Below are positions 6,426 to 64,000 of a stretch of 64,000 nt of DNA, in pieces. A program made the position numbers and the translations under genes. How positions within the stretch are numbered: the first letter of the stretch is position 1; each line of letters opens with the position of its first letter. A model generated the notes under the pieces. That model had not been told where the DNA came from, did no database searches, and saw only the letters and a list, made by a program, of their open reading frames with translations. The DNA comes from Salinibaculum litoreum (GTDB lineage: Archaea > Halobacteriota > Halobacteria > Halobacteriales > Haloarculaceae). The stretch spans positions 434,001-498,000 of the forward strand of contig CP046866.1 of NCBI GenBank assembly GCA_009789175.1. Direction: 5' to 3'.

Positions 6426-7478
6426 TTACTCGAAGTGGATAAGCGGCTTGATGATGTCGTCCTCTTTCTCGTCCATCATGTCGAAGGCCGTCTCGATGTC
6501 TTCGAAGTCGAACTCGTGGGTCGTCATTTTCGTCGGGTCGACGCGGCCGCTCTCGAGCATCTGGAGCATCCGGCGCATTCGCAGGCGGCCACCGGGACAG
6601 AGGTCCGTGACGATGTCTATCTCGGCCATCCCGACGCCCCACTCCTCGCGGGGGATGTGCCGGAATTCGTCGCCGCCGTGGTAGCCGACGTTCGAGACGG
6701 TGCCGCCGGGCTTTGCGACCTTGATGCAGTCCTGTAGGGTCTGGTCCGAGCCCAGCGCCTCGATTGCAGTGTCGACACCCTCGCCGTCTGTCAGGTCCAT
6801 AATCTGTTCGACCGCGTCACCATCAGCGAAGTCCACGACGTGGTCTGCGCCGTACTCGCGGGCGAGTTCCTGCCGCGTCTCAACTGTCTCGACGGCGATA
6901 ACCTCCCCGGCACCCTGCAGCCGTGCTCCCTTCGTCGCCATCAGACCGACCGGTCCCTGTGCGAAGACTGCAACGGTCCCGCCCATCGGAATCGAGCCGT
7001 TCTCCGCCGCTCGAAAGCCCGTACTCATCATGTCGGTGGTGTAGACCGCTTCGTGGTCGGTCACACCCTCCGGGATGTGCGCGAGGTTGCCGTCGGCGTC
7101 GTTGACGTGGACGTACTCCTGGAAGGTCCCGTCTTTGACGTTTGCGAACTTCCAGCCACCGAGTGCACCGTTTGACTGGGAGGAGTGTCCGTCCTGTGCA
7201 GCCTCGGAGTTCCAGTCCGGCGTGATTGCACCGACGACGACCCGGTCCCCTGGCTCGAAGTCGCTCACTTCCGACCCGACTTCCTCGACTGTGCCGACGA
7301 CTTCGTGACCCAGTGTGAGGTCTTCGCGTTCGCCGATTGCGCCGTGTACCGTATGACAATCTGACGTACAGACGAGCCCCTTTGTGGGCTTCAAGATTGC
7401 GTCCATCGGGCCGGCGTCCGGCTGTTCCTTCTCTTCGATACCCGTTTCGCCGACCTGTTTCATTACAAAGGCCTGCAT
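6426..7478 (-). CDS. Zinc-dependent secondary alcohol dehydrogenase (Thermoanaerobacter-type)
   Basis: A 350-residue medium-chain dehydrogenase/reductase. The start MQAFVMKQVG was chosen over an upstream in-frame codon because it aligns with known family starts. The blocks CTSDCHTVHGAIGERED, LGHEVVGTVEEVGSEV, ITPDW, GWKFANVKDG, HVNDADGNLAHIPEGV and LCPGGRLRM closely follow the thermophilic NADP-dependent secondary alcohol dehydrogenase group. The Cys of CTSD, the His of GHE and the Asp of TTDMMSTGF are the expected catalytic zinc ligands, and there is no four-cysteine structural-zinc loop. After the nucleotide-binding strand it reads AVETVETR rather than the NADP-selecting Ser/Arg pattern, so NAD use is possible. 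Confidence 0.85.
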   Translation of the reverse strand: MQAFVMKQVGETGIEEKEQPDAGPMDAILKPTKGLVCTSDCHTVHGAIGEREDLTLGHEVVGTVEEVGSEVSDFEPGDRVVVGAITPDWNSEAAQDGHSSQSNGALGGWKFANVKDGTFQEYVHVNDADGNLAHIPEGVTDHEAVYTTDMMSTGFRAAENGSIPMGGTVAVFAQGPVGLMATKGARLQGAGEVIAVETVETRQELAREYGADHVVDFADGDAVEQIMDLTDGEGVDTAIEALGSDQTLQDCIKVAKPGGTVSNVGYHGGDEFRHIPREEWGVGMAEIDIVTDLCPGGRLRMRRMLQMLESGRVDPTKMTTHEFDFEDIETAFDMMDEKEDDIIKPLIHFE

Positions 7479-7665
7479 GCTACCCAATTGGGACGCCCGT
7501 GTGATAGTTCCCATGCCCCAGCAATCAGCTTCGCATGTGGCCTGACGTCCGTGTCAGTACAGCGTGTCGACACTTCCAGAGTAGTTTCATCGCTTAGACC
7601 TCCCGACCTCGCAAGAATTGGCGTGGGGACACACGCTGTCTGTTGGTCACAGTTGATTGGTAACG

Positions 7666-7703
7666 ATAATCATTATTCACCGTGACAACTCTTTAGTTGT
7701 GAC
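7666..7703. promoter_or_regulatory. Two inverted repeats upstream of porA
   Basis: ATAAT-C-ATTAT (7666-7676) is a perfect palindrome inside the AT-rich stretch GATAATCATTATTC. Close by, GTGACAACT-N4-AGTTGTGAC (7682-7703) is a near-perfect 9-bp inverted repeat with one mismatched pair. Both lie 50-85 bp before the porA ATG in an otherwise empty gap, where a core promoter and its operator would be expected. No factor can be named from the sequence. Confidence 0.4.
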
Positions 7704-7750
7704 CGCTCGTCAGTTCAGGCACGGCACCCAGGCGGGGCCAGAGACCTACT

Positions 7751-9646
7751 ATGACAGATGATACACTGATGTGGCGAATCGCCGGTGGCTCCGGCGATGG
7801 CATTGATTCGACGAGCCAGAACTTCGCCAGGGCGTTGATGCGTGCTGGGCTGGACGTGTTCACCCATCGGCACTACCCCTCCCGCATTCGGGGCGGCCAC
7901 ACCTACGTCGAGGTGCGCGCATCGGATACCCCGGTCCGCTCACGCGGTGACGGGTTCAATTTCCTGCTGGCGCTGGGTGACAGCTTCGCTCGCAACCCAC
8001 AGGACGACGCCTACTACGGCAACGAGGAACTGAAGCCGCTGACAGAACAGCTCGATGACCTCAACGAGGGCGGCGTCATCGTCTACGACACCGGCCAGCT
8101 CGACGAGGAGGAAATCGCACAGACGGACCTCGACGAGCGCGCCGAGGAGAACGACTGGCACGTCTACCCGATGGACCTGCGGAACCTCGCCCGCGAACAC
8201 GGGCGTGACGTGATGCGTAACACCGCCGGCGTCGGCGTGACCGCCGCTCTCGTGGACATGGACGTGAGTTATTTCAAGGACCTCGTCCGGGAAGCGATGA
8301 GCGGCGACGTGATGGAGGCCAATCTGGAGATTCTCGATGCAGCCTACGAGCGGGCCCAGGAACTCGACCAGACACACGACCTGACTGTCCCCAGTGGTAG
8401 CCACGACGGCGAGCAGGCGTTGATGACTGGCAGCAACGCTATCGCCTACGGTGCGCTGGATGCTGGCTGTCGGTTCATCTCCGGCTATCCGATGACACCG
8501 TGGACCGACGTGTTCACAATTATGGCCCAGAACCTGCCGAAGTTCGGCGGGGTCTCCGAGCAAGTCGAGGACGAAATCGCTGCGGCTGCGCTGGCCATCG
8601 GTGCGTCCCACGCCGGCGTGAAAGCCATGAGTGGCTCCTCCGGCGGCGGGTTTGCGCTGATGAGCGAACCGCTCGGGCTCGCGGAGATGACCGAGACACC
8701 GGTCGTCCTCGTAGAGGCGATGCGGGCCGGGCCGTCGACGGGGATGCCGACGAAATCCGAGCAGGCAGACCTCGATTTCGTCCTGTATACGAGCCAGGGT
8801 GACTCCTGTCGGGTCGTCTTCGCCCCGGCCAACGTCACCGAAGCATACGAGCAGACTCGCGCTGCGTTCCGCATCGCCTACGAATACCAGTTGCCGGCTA
8901 TCGTCCTCTACGACCAGAAACTCGGCGGCGAGATGCGCAACGTCTCCGCCGACTTCTTCGACCGCGAACCCAACCCGTCGCTCGGCTCGACGCTCACCGA
9001 AGAGGAACTCGCGGAGGCGGCCCACCACGAGTCCGGGAAGTTCCGGCGGTTCCGCCACGACGGCGAAGACGGCGTCAGCCCCCGCTCGATTCCCGGTCAG
9101 AAAGGCGGTCGCTTCCTGGCGACCGGCAACGAGTCCAACGAAGTGGGCCACATCTGCGAGGACCCCGACAACCGGGTCGCGCAGATGGACCGGCGGATGC
9201 GCAAACTCGATGCTATCCGCACGGACCTGGACGAAGAGGAATCCTCACACCAGACCTATCACGGCCCGACCGGTGCCGAATACGGCATCCTCACCTTCGG
9301 GAGCCAGCAGGATACGGTCTTCGAGGCCGTCGACCGGCTCAACGAACTGGGCCACGACGTGAAGGCCCTGGGCGTGAGCGACCTGATGCCCTACCCCGAG
9401 ATGGAAGTGACGGCCTTCCTCGAATCGGTAGAGGAGTGTCTGGTCGTGGAGATGAACGCAAGCGGGCAGTTCCGCGGGCTCACACAGCGGGAACTGGGAC
9501 GGTTCGGCCCGAAGCTGTCGAGTCTGCTGAAATACGACGGGGAACCGTTCGAGCCCGGCGAAATCGTCGACGGGTTCGAGGCGAGTGTCGACGGCGACCA
9601 GCCCAGCGCTGGCAACCTCAAATACGTCCCAGCGGCAGGTGACTAA
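7751..9646 (+). CDS. porA: Pyruvate:ferredoxin oxidoreductase alpha subunit (gamma-alpha fusion)
   Basis: A 631-residue protein with an N-terminal gamma-type domain (WRIAGGSGDGIDSTSQNFARAL, HRHYPSRIRGGHTYVE) fused to an alpha-type pyrimidine-binding domain (NAIAYGALDAGCRFISGYPMTP, VEDEIAAAALAIGASHAGVKAMSGSSGGGF). This two-subunit form is the haloarchaeal kind. It oxidises a 2-oxoacid with CoA, passing electrons to 2Fe-2S ferredoxin. The length of about 630 residues fits the pyruvate enzyme better than the shorter 2-oxoglutarate paralogue, and this is the basis for naming it porA. It is followed after three bases by porB, so the two are co-transcribed. Confidence 0.87.
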   Translation: MTDDTLMWRIAGGSGDGIDSTSQNFARALMRAGLDVFTHRHYPSRIRGGHTYVEVRASDTPVRSRGDGFNFLLALGDSFARNPQDDAYYGNEELKPLTEQLDDLNEGGVIVYDTGQLDEEEIAQTDLDERAEENDWHVYPMDLRNLAREHGRDVMRNTAGVGVTAALVDMDVSYFKDLVREAMSGDVMEANLEILDAAYERAQELDQTHDLTVPSGSHDGEQALMTGSNAIAYGALDAGCRFISGYPMTPWTDVFTIMAQNLPKFGGVSEQVEDEIAAAALAIGASHAGVKAMSGSSGGGFALMSEPLGLAEMTETPVVLVEAMRAGPSTGMPTKSEQADLDFVLYTSQGDSCRVVFAPANVTEAYEQTRAAFRIAYEYQLPAIVLYDQKLGGEMRNVSADFFDREPNPSLGSTLTEEELAEAAHHESGKFRRFRHDGEDGVSPRSIPGQKGGRFLATGNESNEVGHICEDPDNRVAQMDRRMRKLDAIRTDLDEEESSHQTYHGPTGAEYGILTFGSQQDTVFEAVDRLNELGHDVKALGVSDLMPYPEMEVTAFLESVEECLVVEMNASGQFRGLTQRELGRFGPKLSSLLKYDGEPFEPGEIVDGFEASVDGDQPSAGNLKYVPAAGD

Positions 9647-54243: not shown

Positions 54244-54459
54244 ATGACTGACGAAGAGCTAGATCCTGACGAGAAGAGGCGAGTTCTAGAAAACTTAGCT
54301 TCGGAAGGGCCGCTGACTCACGAACAGCTCGCAAATACGATGGACCACGATTGGGACGAAGTCCAGAAAGCGATCCGCGAACTCCGCAACGAAGGTCTCG
54401 TTACGATTACGCTGGACCGACGGTACGAAGCCGAAGAGGATACTCCTCTTATCGCGTGA
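54244..54459 (+). CDS. Small winged-helix protein upstream of the dGTPase
   Basis: 71 residues, MTDEELDPDEKRRVLENLAS then LTHEQLANTMDHDWDEVQKA and IRELRNEGLVTITLDRRYEA, a simple winged helix. The frame opens at an upstream GTG (54145), but the ATG at 54244 follows the promoter-like sequence and an AGGAGG element. The stop is 5 bp before the dGTPase ATG, so it is probably its co-transcribed regulator. Confidence 0.68.
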   Translation: MTDEELDPDEKRRVLENLASEGPLTHEQLANTMDHDWDEVQKAIRELRNEGLVTITLDRRYEAEEDTPLIA

Positions 54460-54464
54460 TTTGC

Positions 54465-55808
54465 ATGTCGGCTGGCGATCTTCGTGAGAAACGAACGACC
54501 GATATTGGTGAGAGTGATCAAAGAAATCCATTCCAACGTGACCGAGATCGAGTTCTCTATACACACGCATTCCGTCGATTGTCTGGGGTTACGCAGGTCG
54601 CACGCGCAGACGAAGCACATACCTTTCACGATCGTCTGAGTCACTCTCTGAAGGTCGGTCAGATCGGTCGGCGGTTGGCCGAGTACTTACCGGAGAGTTC
54701 AGAGTCTGAAATCCGAAACGGATTGACCGTCAACGAAGATGTCGTTGAAACTGCTGCCCTCGCTCACGATCTGGGACATCCACCCTTTGGACACGTCGCG
54801 GAAAAAGAATTGGACGAGCGAGTGAGGAGCAAAGGGGTGGACGAAGGGTACGAGGGCAACGCTCAGTCGTTTCGTATAGTGACCCACGTTGCGGCCCACG
54901 ATGACGTAAAGAACGGACTGAACCTGACACTGGCGTCACTGAATGCTATTCTGAAATATCCATGGATGCGTGCTGACGAAGGTGTGGGCGATAACAGATG
55001 GGGGGTGAACGAACACGAGAAGTGGGGGGCCTACGAGAGTGAGCGGTCGGTATTCGAGCAAGCTCGAGCACTTGAGCCAGTGGAGAAACGACAAAGTGCC
55101 GAAGCTGCTATCATGGATTGGGCCGACGATCTGGCCTACGCAGTCCACGACGTAGAGGACTTCTACCGGTCCGGAATACTGCCACTAGAGCAACTATTGA
55201 CCGAAAAAACTGCCGAGCGTCACGAATTCTTAACCAGCTTAGAAAAGAATGAGGGCATCAATTACGACGATGGTGTGGAAATTTTAGATTTTCTAAAAAA
55301 CCAAGGCGGAAGGAGTCTCCTGTCACCGTTCAACGGGACAAAGGCGGAACGTCGTGCCCTCGACTACTTATCCTCAACCCTGATTCAGAGATACATTGGT
55401 GTCGAGCAGGGAGGAATCTATCTCCAAGATCATGACGACAACGAACCGTATCTCCAAGTTGCAGACGAGCTTCGCCGGGAGGTCTCACTGCTAAAGTTCA
55501 TGACTATCTACTATGTGATTGGTGATCCAGCTTTGCGCGCTCAGCAACGAGGACAAAGAGAAGTCGTGAGCGAGTTGTTTGAGACCCTATTCCAAGCAGT
55601 CGACCCAGAGGGCAATGAAGATCAAGATATCATTCCGAACCCGTTCCGTGAAAAGGCTCAGAGTCTCTCAAGCAGCGCTCGTCGAAAGGAGGTCGCAAGG
55701 CTCACCACTGATATCATGAGTAGCCTGACTGAAAAGCAGACTGTCCAGATGTACGAGCGTCTTTCAGGAATATCTCCTGGATCTATACGTGAACAAATAA
55801 CGTATTAA
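54465..55808 (+). CDS. HD-domain dGTP triphosphohydrolase-like protein
   Basis: A 447-residue protein. DRDRVLYTHAFRRLSGVTQV and HDRLSHSLKVGQIGRRLAEY are dGTPase signatures; AALAHDLGHPPFGHVAEKEL carries the metal-binding H101-D102. MDWADDLAYAVHDVEDFYRS has the second metal site. These enzymes release triphosphate from dGTP. Bacterial relatives protect against phage by draining dNTPs. AT-richer composition, its position in a defence-type island and the adjacent small regulator suggest such a role here. The enzymatic family is clear; the defence role is inferred. Confidence 0.85.
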   Translation: MSAGDLREKRTTDIGESDQRNPFQRDRDRVLYTHAFRRLSGVTQVARADEAHTFHDRLSHSLKVGQIGRRLAEYLPESSESEIRNGLTVNEDVVETAALAHDLGHPPFGHVAEKELDERVRSKGVDEGYEGNAQSFRIVTHVAAHDDVKNGLNLTLASLNAILKYPWMRADEGVGDNRWGVNEHEKWGAYESERSVFEQARALEPVEKRQSAEAAIMDWADDLAYAVHDVEDFYRSGILPLEQLLTEKTAERHEFLTSLEKNEGINYDDGVEILDFLKNQGGRSLLSPFNGTKAERRALDYLSSTLIQRYIGVEQGGIYLQDHDDNEPYLQVADELRREVSLLKFMTIYYVIGDPALRAQQRGQREVVSELFETLFQAVDPEGNEDQDIIPNPFREKAQSLSSSARRKEVARLTTDIMSSLTEKQTVQMYERLSGISPGSIREQITY

Positions 55809-55939: not shown

Positions 55940-58900
55940 ATGACTCTCCAGCAGATTACCGCGGATGACATCGCGGGCTGGGACTCTCTCGATGATATTG
56001 CGTCCTCTTTCGAAAAGCGTGGTCTGAAAACGCGTCCGAACCTCGGCGAGGAGAACGAGCTGGTTCTCCAGCTCACAGACACCGAATTCATCAAGATAGT
56101 CGAAGCCGGGCCGGGTGAATCGGCGACGGATTTCAAGCCCGACAACCGGAATCGCCGAACGAACCTCGTGGCCACGAACGACTACGAGGAGTTCACGTTC
56201 CTCACTCGGATTCGTAGTTGGGAGGGCCAACAACACGGTCGGATCAAACACCAGAAGCTCTCGTTCACGAAGGAGCAGATGACGAGCGCGAGCGGGGAGA
56301 AAAACACCGTCCTCCAGAAGCTCAACAGCATCGAGTACGGGTCTGCCGAGGCCATTCAAGATACGCTCTACGACACCAAGCAGGTCGTCAAGGAGTTCTA
56401 CCAGCAGTTCGAGAACCTCCGAACCGATCTCGTACAGGAGGTGGCCAACATACCCGACGACCGCGGCGATGCCAAACAGCGGTACGTACAGGTCGTCCTT
56501 GACCGGATGATCTTCCTCTACTTCATTCAGGAGAAGCGGCTGCTTGACCGTAACATCGACTACCTCCACGAGAAACACAAGGAAGTCGTTGAAAAGGACG
56601 GGGACGTGTACGAGGACTTCTATCACCCCCTGTTCTTCGAGATGCTCGCCGAGGGCAAACAGGATCCCGACTTCGGGAGCCTGCCCTACCTGAACGGTGG
56701 ACTGTTCTCGAAGAACCCGGTCGAAGAGGAGTTCGAAGACGCCCGGCTGGGTGAGTCCTCCGAGCGGACGAACGAACTGTTCGGAGATATTCTCGACTTT
56801 CTCTCTGACTGGAACTGGAACGTCGACGAACGGCTGGATGTTGTGGATCCGAAGAACCTCTCGCCGGCGATTCTCGGGCACATCTTCGAGCAGACGGTTA
56901 ACCAGAAGGAGATGGGTGCGTACTACACGCCCGAAGAGATCACCGGGTTCATGGCGCGAAAGTCGATTCATCCGTATATTCTCGATCGGTTGAACGAGGC
57001 GGTAGATGCCGAGTACGAGGAGATAGACGAAGTGTTTGGTTTTCACGCCGTTGACGCTGGTGACGGAACAACAGCACTTGCTGATGGTGGAGCGGCGACA
57101 GTACAGGTATCGACTGAGAATGTACAGACGAGTCACGTAGAGACGCTCTATCACGACGTGCTGACCGAGATGCGTGTCCTTGACCCTGCGGTCGGGAGTG
57201 GTGCGTTCTTGCTCGCGTCACAGGAGGTACTGCTGGACATCTATATGCAGTGTCTCGAGTTCTTCCAGCAGCTGGTTTCTGACGGGAGAGGATGGGAGTT
57301 AGAGAATCGAACGCGTGAGGAGTTGGATGCTATCGAGAATGGTCGAGGCAACCCCGCACTGTATGCCAAGCGCGCCATCATCCTCAACAATCTTTACGGG
57401 GTCGATATTGACGATGGAGCCGTTGAAATCTGCAAACTCCGATTGTGGCTCTCGATGGTTGCGGATATTGAGGACGAGCCGAGCGAAGTCGAGCCGCTCC
57501 CCAATATTGATTTCAACATCCGTCAGGGGAATTCTCTGATTGGCTTTACCGAGGTTATGGAAGTTGCTACTGAAGAGGGGGATAGTTCCTTGAACAACTG
57601 GGGAGCGGGCACGGAATCAAGCGTCAGAGAACTGTATGAGGATGTTATCGAGGCTATTGATCGGCACCGAGAAGCTACGAGTGCAAAGGAGGCGACCAAC
57701 GCTCGACGGTTGGCCGAATCTCGAATTGCCTCCCATAGTGAGGTGCTTGACGAGAAGATTCTGAACCAGTTCCAAGAAGCCGGTATCGACGAAGTTGACG
57801 CAGATGTTCTGGAAGAATTCCATCCCTTCCATTGGGTTCTGGAATTCGCTCCAGTGTACCGGGATGGCGGATTCGACGTTATTATTGGCAACCCGCCTTG
57901 GGACGTACTGACGGTCGATCGAGACCACTTCTTCCCGAAATACGACGAGCAGTTCCGTACCCGGCCGCCGAGCGAGAAAGACGAGATGCAGGAGAAACTC
58001 CTCGAAGACCCGGGAGTGCGTGAAGCATGGGAAGAGTTCCAGCGTGAAATGGAACTCAAAGCGGAGTATTACAATACCACGACCCAGTACGAACTGCAGA
58101 GCCCGACTGTAGGCGGGAAGACGGTCGCAACCGAGAACGAACTCTCACTGTTCTTCTTCGAACGCACGACTCAGTTGGCGAGCGACGAATCCTATGTAAC
58201 GCAAATCATGCCCGGTAGCTTCTTCCTCGGTGCTACTGGCAAAGACTTGCGTCAGTATCTTATTGATGAGACGACGCTCGAACACTTCGTTCAGTTCCAA
58301 AATAAGGGGATATTCGACGACCTCCACAATAGTTACCGCATCGCAATCTGCACGTTCAAGAACACTGGTTCTACGGATTCAATTCGTGGAGCCTACACTA
58401 TCGGCGACTTATCGCTGCTACCACAGTTTGAAGATAGAGCGATCGATGTTCCGGTAGAAGTACTGAAGAACTATTCTCCTGAATCAGGAATCTTCCCATT
58501 CTTCCGGTCGCAAAGGCTCATTGACGCGCTATCGAAGATTATCCAATATCCACCCATTGGACAAGAGGTCGACGACGCGTGGTTTGCTATCCTCTATATG
58601 AAGGAACTTGATCGAGCGACAGACTCCGACCGCCTCATTGAGTCTGAGGAAGAAGGTGACTACCCAATCTACGAGGGGAAGAACATTCACCAGTACGAGT
58701 ATAATGGCGAGATCGAGGATTCTCTGACGCCCATCTCGCTTTGGGGAGTCGACGAATACGACCCCGAGCGAAGCGCCAAGCATAGAGTCCGCATGAAGAA
58801 CTTCAGGTCGCGAGACGTGAATACAAGCCTGAAGAAGTCGATTTATGAGAAGTTTGACGGGACAGGTTCCCAGAAGGGTTTCGTCAACGACCTGCTGGAA

Positions 58901-59572
58901 CAGCACGGACGCCCAGAGCTATCGAAGGAAGATGTCCTGTTGGACTGTACAGAGTATCGAATCGGGATCCGGAATATAGCCAGAGCGGATGACGAGCGGA
59001 CGCTGATAGCGACCGTCCTCCCGAAAGATGTGGTGACTGTCCATACAATCTGCACCATCCGTCCATACATTATTGATCCCACTGAGGAAGACCTCAGTAA
59101 CCACCCGATGCATAGCGCCTACAAGCGTGCATTCACCGACAAAGAGCTATTCGTACTACTCGGACTCCTCAACAGCGCCCCATTCGACTATCTGATGCGA
59201 ACAAAGGTGGATAGCCATATTGTCCAGTACAAATTCAACGAGTCACAACTACCTCGACTCACAGATGGCGACGACTGGTTCCATTACATCTCCGACCGAG
59301 CTGCTCGCCTGAACTCCTATGGTGACGAGTTCTCGGAGATGCGGGAACGTCTTGGAGGTATCGAGCCTGCGATAGACGAAGACGAAAGGCGAGAACTCCG
59401 GGCAGAGATTGATGCTGCATCGTTCCACGCCTATGGATTAGAACGACGGGAGGTAGCATTCATTCTCGACGACTTCCACAGGGTTGAGAACCCACGTCTG
59501 ATGGACGAAGAGTACTTTGACATGGTGTTCGAGAAGTTCGATCTCCTCGAAGAGAGGGGGCCTCTAGAATAG
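55940..59572 (+). CDS. Eco57I-type adenine-specific DNA methyltransferase, DrmMI-like
   Basis: A 1210-residue protein. ATP-free N-terminal 320 residues contain FLYFIQEKRLLDRNIDYLHE and LPYLNGGLFS; then EMGAYYTPEEITGFMARKSI (about 324-343), motif I VLDPAVGSGAFLLASQEVLL (about 413-432) and motif IV IIGNPPWDVLTVDRDHFFPK (about 647-666) define a gamma-class N6-adenine methylase. The C-terminal half probably recognises DNA. No nuclease motif was found. Class 1 DISARM uses a methylase of this size and type together with a DrmD helicase, and a DrmD-like gene lies downstream. A type IIG/L restriction enzyme is the main alternative. Confidence 0.83.
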   Translation: MTLQQITADDIAGWDSLDDIASSFEKRGLKTRPNLGEENELVLQLTDTEFIKIVEAGPGESATDFKPDNRNRRTNLVATNDYEEFTFLTRIRSWEGQQHGRIKHQKLSFTKEQMTSASGEKNTVLQKLNSIEYGSAEAIQDTLYDTKQVVKEFYQQFENLRTDLVQEVANIPDDRGDAKQRYVQVVLDRMIFLYFIQEKRLLDRNIDYLHEKHKEVVEKDGDVYEDFYHPLFFEMLAEGKQDPDFGSLPYLNGGLFSKNPVEEEFEDARLGESSERTNELFGDILDFLSDWNWNVDERLDVVDPKNLSPAILGHIFEQTVNQKEMGAYYTPEEITGFMARKSIHPYILDRLNEAVDAEYEEIDEVFGFHAVDAGDGTTALADGGAATVQVSTENVQTSHVETLYHDVLTEMRVLDPAVGSGAFLLASQEVLLDIYMQCLEFFQQLVSDGRGWELENRTREELDAIENGRGNPALYAKRAIILNNLYGVDIDDGAVEICKLRLWLSMVADIEDEPSEVEPLPNIDFNIRQGNSLIGFTEVMEVATEEGDSSLNNWGAGTESSVRELYEDVIEAIDRHREATSAKEATNARRLAESRIASHSEVLDEKILNQFQEAGIDEVDADVLEEFHPFHWVLEFAPVYRDGGFDVIIGNPPWDVLTVDRDHFFPKYDEQFRTRPPSEKDEMQEKLLEDPGVREAWEEFQREMELKAEYYNTTTQYELQSPTVGGKTVATENELSLFFFERTTQLASDESYVTQIMPGSFFLGATGKDLRQYLIDETTLEHFVQFQNKGIFDDLHNSYRIAICTFKNTGSTDSIRGAYTIGDLSLLPQFEDRAIDVPVEVLKNYSPESGIFPFFRSQRLIDALSKIIQYPPIGQEVDDAWFAILYMKELDRATDSDRLIESEEEGDYPIYEGKNIHQYEYNGEIEDSLTPISLWGVDEYDPERSAKHRVRMKNFRSRDVNTSLKKSIYEKFDGTGSQKGFVNDLLEQHGRPELSKEDVLLDCTEYRIGIRNIARADDERTLIATVLPKDVVTVHTICTIRPYIIDPTEEDLSNHPMHSAYKRAFTDKELFVLLGLLNSAPFDYLMRTKVDSHIVQYKFNESQLPRLTDGDDWFHYISDRAARLNSYGDEFSEMRERLGGIEPAIDEDERRELRAEIDAASFHAYGLERREVAFILDDFHRVENPRLMDEEYFDMVFEKFDLLEERGPLE

Positions 59573-59576
59573 AACG

Positions 59577-60608
59577 ATGGTCTACCACGTCGACGGGAAG
59601 GGAATCAACGCCCTCGAACCCGCCAGCTTTGACGCCCTGAATGTCGCAGAGTCCGACATCGAAGAGTGGGTGATCGAGACACCGTCGATACTCGGCGAGG
59701 ATCTACTGGTCGTCGCCTCACAATATGCCAAGTTCGACCGAACCGCGGAGAGGCCGGATGTGCTGGCCCTCGATCCCGACGGGAAACTGGTGGTCATCGA
59801 ATTGAAGCGCGACCGGGCAGACACGACTACCGACTTGCAGGCGATCAAGTACGCCAGCTACTGCTCGACGATCAGTGCAGAGGAACTACAGCAGGACTAT
59901 CGCGGGTTCTGGAACGAGCGTCGAGACGAGGACGACCAGTTGACACCGGAGGATGTCGGCGAAAAGTTCAGAAACTTCCTCGGCGAGGACATCACGACGA
60001 CAGAGGAAGGGTACGCCGACTTCGTCCTCGACGATCGGCCACGCATCTTGCTGGCTGCCGGGAGCTTTGGGCCCGAGATCACCACTCCGGTCGTCTGGCT
60101 CGAACGGGAGTTCGGGATGGATATTACCTGTGTCGAGCTGGAGGCCCACCAGCGAGACGACGAAGTGTTCGTCAGCTCCAGACACGTCCTCCCCGTCCCG
60201 GAGGCGGAGGAGTACATGGCCAAGCGCCGGCAGAAAGAACGACAGCAGAGCCGATCCTCGAGCCGTGCCGAGCGGGCAATCACGGTTCTACTTGAAGCCG
60301 GGCTCGTTCAGGAGGGTGACGTGGTCGTGTTCGACCCGGACAAGGTACCAGACGACAGCGAGAAGTCCTACGACGCAGATGACGACTTCTGGCGTGGACG
60401 GATCACCGGGAAGACGGGCCGGAGTAACAACGTTGAATGGCTGGAGAACGGATCAGAGTACTCGTTCACTGCGCTGGCACAGGAGGTTATGGAACGGGCC
60501 ACGGGACGGGAATTCAACGTCAACGGCTATCCATACTGGCGGCATCCCGATCATGACATGACCTTGTCCGAGTTGAGGCGGACAAAAGTCGGCGACATCG
60601 ATTGGTGA
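59577..60608 (+). CDS. DUF91/NucS-type nuclease with RAMA-like C-terminus
   Basis: A 343-residue protein. Residues 15-110 form a PDDEXK-type domain: ESDIEEWVIETPSILGEDLL, then RPDVLALDPDGKLVVIELKR, with D61 and E75-x-K77 as the expected metal and catalytic residues. After a basic linker (AKRRQKERQQSRSSSRAERA), residues about 235-330 (AITVLLEAGLVQEGDVVVFD onward, ending REFNVNGYPYWRHPDHD) resemble the RAMA domain associated with restriction and adenine methylation. It begins 4 bp after the methyltransferase stop, so the pair is co-transcribed. It may cut DNA lacking, or carrying, the partner's mark. Confidence 0.75.
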   Translation: MVYHVDGKGINALEPASFDALNVAESDIEEWVIETPSILGEDLLVVASQYAKFDRTAERPDVLALDPDGKLVVIELKRDRADTTTDLQAIKYASYCSTISAEELQQDYRGFWNERRDEDDQLTPEDVGEKFRNFLGEDITTTEEGYADFVLDDRPRILLAAGSFGPEITTPVVWLEREFGMDITCVELEAHQRDDEVFVSSRHVLPVPEAEEYMAKRRQKERQQSRSSSRAERAITVLLEAGLVQEGDVVVFDPDKVPDDSEKSYDADDDFWRGRITGKTGRSNNVEWLENGSEYSFTALAQEVMERATGREFNVNGYPYWRHPDHDMTLSELRRTKVGDIDW

Positions 60609-60659: not shown

Positions 60660-61559
60660 ATGGACGTACCAGATGTCTTGGTAGAGAGATTTTCAGACGA
60701 GGTCTCGGAGGTTTCTGAAGACGAATTCCGGGACTTCCCGAAAGAGCGGAAGTTCATCAAGTCGTTACTTGAAACACTTGATGACATCTATATCACAGAG
60801 GGCAACTCTCGACTGTGGACTAAGACGAAGTACTATGACCGCTCTCCAGAGATCGGGTACTACTGCGAGGATACCGATGACTTAGAAAGGATGGAGTTCG
60901 CCGATCTGCTCTTCGTTATTCATCATTTGGAGGACACCCAACTGGACGAAACTAGAGTATCCATTTCGCAATCAAAATATGCTGGGAAGGATGATGACGG
61001 CAAATTCGACGCGTGCTGGGACATCAGATTAGACCAATACCACCTTCTTGAGGAACTCCCACTATTCACCCCAACCAGCCCTGATTTGAGCAAGTGCTAC
61101 TGGCTTAACCCCGATAACAATTCGTTCTCAACGTATTCGTTTGCGAGCGACTCTTGGCTACCATTCTTTGACTCAACAGAAGCGATGCGACGTCACATGA
61201 CGTATGGCGGTCAGTGCAGCGGCTCCGAGGACTACGACCGAGACGGCACCAAGGTATCGGGGTATAATTCTGCTATGGGCTTTCTCAGACTGTTAGTACG
61301 TGGACAACGGGGGGAACCCTTGTCGGACAATCCCGTTGCAGCCAAGTTCTTCCAGCATGTCTTCGAAGAATCGAACAGTTTCGGCCGGAGCAGTTCCCCA
61401 AACGTAATTTCAGATGGTGGCGAACCCGAGGGGGAACCGGTAGAACCAGCGGAGGGCGGAAATGGGTTTGGAATAATCCAGATCACCGTGAGCAGAGGAA
61501 GACAATCAGAGTTCGATGAGGAGGGGCCACCTGTGTTCTTCGATCTTGCGGAACAATAA
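60660..61559 (+). CDS. Unknown protein of the defence-type island
   Basis: A 299-residue acidic, soluble protein with no signal or membrane segment and no family I recognise. The middle section (ETRVSISQSKYAGKDDDGKF then DACWDIRLDQYHLLEELPLF) has a strand ending in Q-S-K, loosely like the QxK or ExK strand of PDDEXK nucleases; this is weak. The C-terminal 60 residues are Gly/Glu-rich, ending QITVSRGRQSEFDEEGPPVF. It lies between the methylase-nuclease pair and the convergent helicase, 8 bp from its stop. A defence role is inferred from position only. Confidence 0.65.
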   Translation: MDVPDVLVERFSDEVSEVSEDEFRDFPKERKFIKSLLETLDDIYITEGNSRLWTKTKYYDRSPEIGYYCEDTDDLERMEFADLLFVIHHLEDTQLDETRVSISQSKYAGKDDDGKFDACWDIRLDQYHLLEELPLFTPTSPDLSKCYWLNPDNNSFSTYSFASDSWLPFFDSTEAMRRHMTYGGQCSGSEDYDRDGTKVSGYNSAMGFLRLLVRGQRGEPLSDNPVAAKFFQHVFEESNSFGRSSSPNVISDGGEPEGEPVEPAEGGNGFGIIQITVSRGRQSEFDEEGPPVFFDLAEQ

Positions 61560-61567
61560 CGAACGCC

Positions 61568-64000
<2,433 letters not shown>

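Follow-up and report, generated by a model that had tools for sequence, protein, structure and literature searches.

Organization of the M–H locus and its variable slot

The locus in the window (the whole stretch of DNA that was analysed, 64,000 nucleotides) was composed of the following ORFs: (i) M (55940..59572, + strand), an Eco57I-type N6-adenine methyltransferase of 1210 aa with motifs DPAVGSG (415) and NPPW (651); (ii) N (59577..60608, + strand, ATG start), a 343-aa two-domain protein with a putative NucS/DUF91-type nuclease plus a RAMA-type domain; (iii) S (60660..61559, + strand), a 299-aa ORF of unknown family, which in this genome occupies the variable slot on the H side of N; and (iv) H (61568..64000, − strand, running past the window to 65416 in window numbering), a PLD plus SNF2-type helicase of 1282 aa displaying motifs HAK (146), GSSNF (176), GLGKS (305), and DEAH (392). 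The start of N was separated from the M stop codon by 4 bp (59572 to 59577), just as the original prediction had placed it relative to an adenine methylase. A dGTPase-like HD protein (window 54459-55808, + strand; PADLOC dGTPase E 2e-89) was located directly upstream of M. Beyond the window (65506-69309 in window numbering) there were a radical SAM protein of 446 aa and then two ORFs resembling proteins of the Gp37/Gp68 (DUF5131) type and TcmP.

Among 391 haloarchaeal genomes, 50 H loci were found, and in 49 of them the contig also carried M no more than 20 kb away, M and H being typically convergent. N was present in 9 of the 49 M–H loci, always between M and H, and all nine close N homologues in the 391 genomes sat in this position (9/9), so that the linkage of N to the methylase is genuine. 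Where N was missing from an M–H locus, M and H were often <100 bp apart or were separated by genes of other kinds, namely one for a cyclase-like protein in L145, those for an HNH protein and a DUF4268 nuclease in L163, and small unknown ORFs. The slot of L145 harbored a CD-NTase-like cyclase (7390-8514; PADLOC E 5e-94) together with a 298-aa neighbour. Two genomes carried a disrupted N together with full-length M and H frames: in G331 N was interrupted by an in-frame TAG, and in G345 it had a frame break.

The PLD and helicase motifs of H were retained in 28 of 29 loci, with and without N (the exception in this count was L041, where the pattern search gave another HxK first). Since H carried PLD nuclease motifs of its own and 40 of the 49 M–H loci did without N, N is optional and not the supplier of restriction, contrary to the proposal that it gives the locus its restriction function. 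A role for N as a substitute for a dead PLD domain was also considered and rejected, the PLD motifs being present with and without N. In the tree, the locus-linked Ns formed one clade (100/100) nested among a larger set of solitary haloarchaeal Ns, and therefore the N architecture is older than the association with M; N was recruited once into the methylase–helicase locus and is optional there.

The designation of the locus as DISARM-like did not hold: the core was M plus the PLD-SNF2 helicase, no DrmB-type MZB lay nearby (the genome gave three MZB matches in the search for MZB/DUF1998 (DrmB), the nearest about 380 kb from the locus), and the DrmMI/DrmD matches were partial and far below the NCBIfam cut-off. 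The BREX-related Type-2 systems have been described as containing a DUF499 ATPase, an N6-MTase, an HKD-SNF2 helicase, DUF3780, and sometimes RAMA (PMC12839542). This locus shared with them the N6-methylase plus HKD-SNF2 helicase and a RAMA-bearing accessory protein, but it had no DUF499 (no DUF499 ATPase match in this genome at E 0.001), and the partner of its RAMA domain was a NucS-type nuclease instead of DUF3780.

Domain composition of N

Homologues of N at 45-86% identity were found in many haloarchaea, and conservation of the ORF and of both its domains in dozens of haloarchaeal genomes indicates that N is not a chance ORF. Bacteroidota plasmids also encoded N-like proteins, the C-terminus of which had part of the motif (see below). 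No relatives were found in the viral contig scans. PHROGs gave no match. Defence genes were often located near the solitary Ns.

The sequence comparison of the family used an alignment of 25 members. The PD-(D/E)XK nuclease domain of N covered residues 1-215 (59577..60221, + strand), and its assignment was based on NucS_C matches, on the solved NucS 2vld, and on the alignment of NucS residues: (i) NucS_C (Pfam PF01939, DUF91) was matched by 25/25 members, with a best E of 1.9e-7; (ii) the N family profile retrieved 2vld at E 9e-4; and (iii) E25, D61, E75, K77, Q88, and Y92 of N, all invariant in 25/25 members, aligned with NucS E127, D160, E174, K176, Q187, and Y191, which are listed as active-site or DNA-binding residues (PMC7343888). 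D61 and E75-x-K77 were thus found exactly where they had been placed in the original prediction, and the predicted PDDEXK-type DUF91 core is likewise supported by sequence; the AlphaFold model of full-length N, built from an alignment of only 3 sequences, had a pLDDT of 36.7.

Compared to NucS/EndoMS (PF01939, DUF91), N harbored the same PD-(D/E)XK core with the full E-D-E-x-K-Q-Y set aligned and invariant, but it lacked the N-terminal DNA-binding/dimerisation half, contained a C-terminal RAMA domain, and was located in a defence locus. The assignment of N to NucS/EndoMS proper was rejected: the NCBIfam NucS model gave 37 bits against an equivalog cut-off of 216 and was covered only at positions 126-209 of 250, and the N-terminal domain was absent. 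The PADLOC candidate defence family PDC-S11 (DUF91 plus DUF4268 type) matched the first 233 residues of N at E 8e-55; the likeness lay in the nuclease half and ended at residue 233, the usual C-terminal region being replaced by RAMA in N.

The basic linker that had been noted before was found at residues 216-230 (KRRQKERQQSRSSSR; 60222..60266, + strand), which the model made part of a long helix running into the beginning of the RAMA domain. The RAMA-type domain, supported by hhalign and fold comparison, covered residues about 231-335 (60267..60581, + strand) and displayed the conserved positions S296-F297-T298, N316-G317, W321, and R334. The string NVNGYPYWRHP was present at residues 314-324 as described, but it did not end the protein, which continued to DIDW343.

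The claimed resemblance of this C-terminal block to RAMA was sub-threshold by Pfam alone: RAMA (PF18755) matched N at E 0.053 with 13.9 bits, against a gathering cut-off of 35.2, and over residues 217-253 only. Weak PF18755 matches occurred in 14/25 members (best E 4.7e-4; best relative 20.5 bits) and, where inspected, covered the same first third of RAMA. Searches of the haloarchaeal genomes with PF18755 and DUF4357 gave no match at E 0.001, and the RAMA references were therefore taken from plasmids; they were plasmid records found with an approximate CcrM-like query, all of them database sequences, and representatives of the set passed the PF18755 cut-off. Alignment of the N C-terminal profile to this set by hhalign scored 31.0 (E 9e-5, 82 columns), spanned LL..G to the final LR, and placed NGY/YW on NGW/FW, while 200 column-shuffled controls had a mean of 11.1 and a maximum of 17.5, with 0/200 reaching 31.0. 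The A2 profile found no match among the PDB sequences.

Residues 214-343 modelled alone (3-sequence alignment) gave a model of moderate quality (pLDDT 76.9, pTM 0.70). In its comparison with 273 PDB chains, ranks 1 and 2 were both solved RAMA domains, MPND (7ydw; Z 8.7, 87 residues, 2.4 A) and CcrM (6pbd residues 272-357; Z 8.5, 84 residues, 2.6 A), followed by a SAND domain (Z 5.0) and a PWWP domain (2.7); SAND and PWWP are also the folds to which the CcrM RAMA domain has been likened in publication. A RAMA match was obtained by both hhalign and fold comparison, and the original prediction is upheld in this respect: the profile alignment and the modelled fold identify the N C-terminus as a divergent RAMA-fold homologue below the Pfam membership cut-off. 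The nuclease–RAMA fusion in N is real and rare.

The RAMA domains of CcrM (6PBD) and MPND (7YDW) resembled that of N in predicted fold and in the conserved S, NG, W, R motif. The CcrM residues S315, N330, and R350, which contact DNA phosphates, were retained in N as S296, N316 (23/25), and R334, whereas CcrM H317 and W332 were replaced by T298 and Y318. N further differed from both in having a longer hairpin insertion (residues about 255-290), in its position below the Pfam cut-off, and in its fusion to a NucS-type nuclease. The net charge of the RAMA domain was negative, which is uninformative on DNA binding because haloarchaeal proteins are acidic. RAMA-Mrr-NTPase and GIY-YIG-RAMA fusions have been described and proposed as 6mA readers (PMC11037411). 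These fusions, like N, join RAMA to a restriction nuclease; N differs from them in its nuclease family and in having no NTPase, and the N family, unlike them, occurs alone or beside a methylase–helicase locus.

Relation of N to the methylase and its mark

The recognition region of M (residues about 640-980, presumed to hold target recognition) showed just 42-49% identity in 20 of the 21 pairs of loci, with flanks 72-90% and 54-71% identical; the exception was the pair of the present locus and L035, at 86%. Such divergence suggests that M specificity differs between loci. N was 76-96% identical across the same pairs, and in L036 versus L038 it was 96% identical beside M recognition regions 45% identical. 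An N tuned to the recognition sequence of M should co-vary with that region of M; it did not, and N therefore appears insensitive to M specificity.

We regard it as fairly probable that N serves as an accessory nuclease to a restriction-type defence locus of two genes (M plus PLD-SNF2 H), with RAMA gripping the DNA. Cleavage would be carried out by the NucS/EndoMS-like PD-(D/E)XK domain, and the C-terminal RAMA would hold the duplex by contacting phosphates, like the RAMA domains of CcrM and MPND. N would act in defence, its target choice probably coming from M/H or from DNA structure rather than from RAMA reading a sequence-specific mark of M. DNA gripping is the simplest reading of the RAMA domain.

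In the original prediction, RAMA would read N6-methyladenine and steer the nuclease by the mark of M, so that either self DNA would be spared or methylated DNA would be cut. RAMA has been proposed as a 6mA reader, with an MPND pull-down in support (reviewed in PMC9963953, PMC11037411), but the MPND structural study, contrary to the earlier pull-down, found binding unchanged by 6mA, and the CcrM RAMA binds phosphates; the preference of RAMA for 6mA is disputed in the literature, even for MPND, and the claim that RAMA reads the mark of M is thus not borne out. The genomic context favours a tie to methylation, in that N lies 4 bp after M, the N clade is confined to M–H loci, and McrB proteins, the GTPases of modification-dependent restriction, carry this domain too (see below). 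Against it stand the near-identical Ns beside strongly diverged M recognition regions (see above), the solitary relatives with no M–H partner, and the likely self-toxicity of cleaving M-marked DNA. Cutting according to the mark of the methylase is accordingly unlikely. The strict linkage of the N clade to M could still mean that N depends functionally on methylation irrespective of the surrounding sequence, and a sequence-independent 6mA sensor is a possible role for the N RAMA domain.

It is similarly improbable that N is interchangeable cargo of the M–H slot, i.e., a defence gene that works on its own and does not cooperate with M or H: the contents of the slot differ among loci and the ancestral Ns were solitary, but in all linked loci N directly followed M on its 3′ side and was read in the same direction, and across the 391 genomes no member of the linked clade occurred outside the locus. 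Very unlikely is a NucS/EndoMS-like structure-specific repair nuclease (for mismatched, branched, or stalled DNA) hitchhiking at the locus, e.g., clearing damage made by H, for although NucS and EndoMS are the closest solved relatives and share the active-site set, the NucS N-terminal DNA-binding half is missing with RAMA on the other side, and the relatives, which are patchy, partly plasmid-borne, and match PDC-S11, are ill-suited to housekeeping repair.

RAMA-like domains of McrB proteins, and methylase copies in inverted orientation

In haloarchaea, AAA_5 GTPases of the McrB type ended in a RAMA-like domain of the N type (41-51% identity): L053 8593-11502, L054 8024-11434, L062 7799-11770, and L063 6921-9965, the inspected partners being McrC. 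That the haloarchaeal RAMA module would be a sequence-independent adenine-methylation sensor deployed in two restriction machines, the M–H-linked NucS-type nuclease and the McrB C-terminus, is a quite unlikely idea. If such a sensor did ignore sequence context, the same N would be usable beside methylases of many specificities and would also work with methylases switching specificity by inversion. N offers a simple natural system in which methylation sensing by RAMA can be told from DNA grip only, since it has an intact nuclease site, exists both alone and linked to a methylase, and includes copies that share 96% identity next to methylases with differing predicted specificities; the McrB-RAMA fusions allow the question to be put again, independently, in these organisms.

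The sister M–H loci L156 (G148), L157 (G198), L147, L155, and L158-L162 each harbored a second, 5′-truncated, inverted methylase copy, covering about residues 436/485-1210. The truncated copy in L157 matched the last 500 aa of L156 M at 100% identity, and that of L156 matched L157 M at 99%; L147 and L162 displayed the same recognition-half swap (99%). The sister loci have exchanged M recognition halves, as expected of inversion-driven specificity switching. The second invertible copy was present in 0/9 loci with N and 11/40 without N (p about 0.10), and mutual exclusion of the two was rejected as not significant.

The present genome encoded a second M-like methylase (G000:C1:55772-58870) with 43% identity and an open frame of 1290 aa. 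In Halosimplex aquaticum (L033/L175), M was split, residues 2-573 lying about 925 kb from residues 562-1208, and the latter part adjoined intact N and H.
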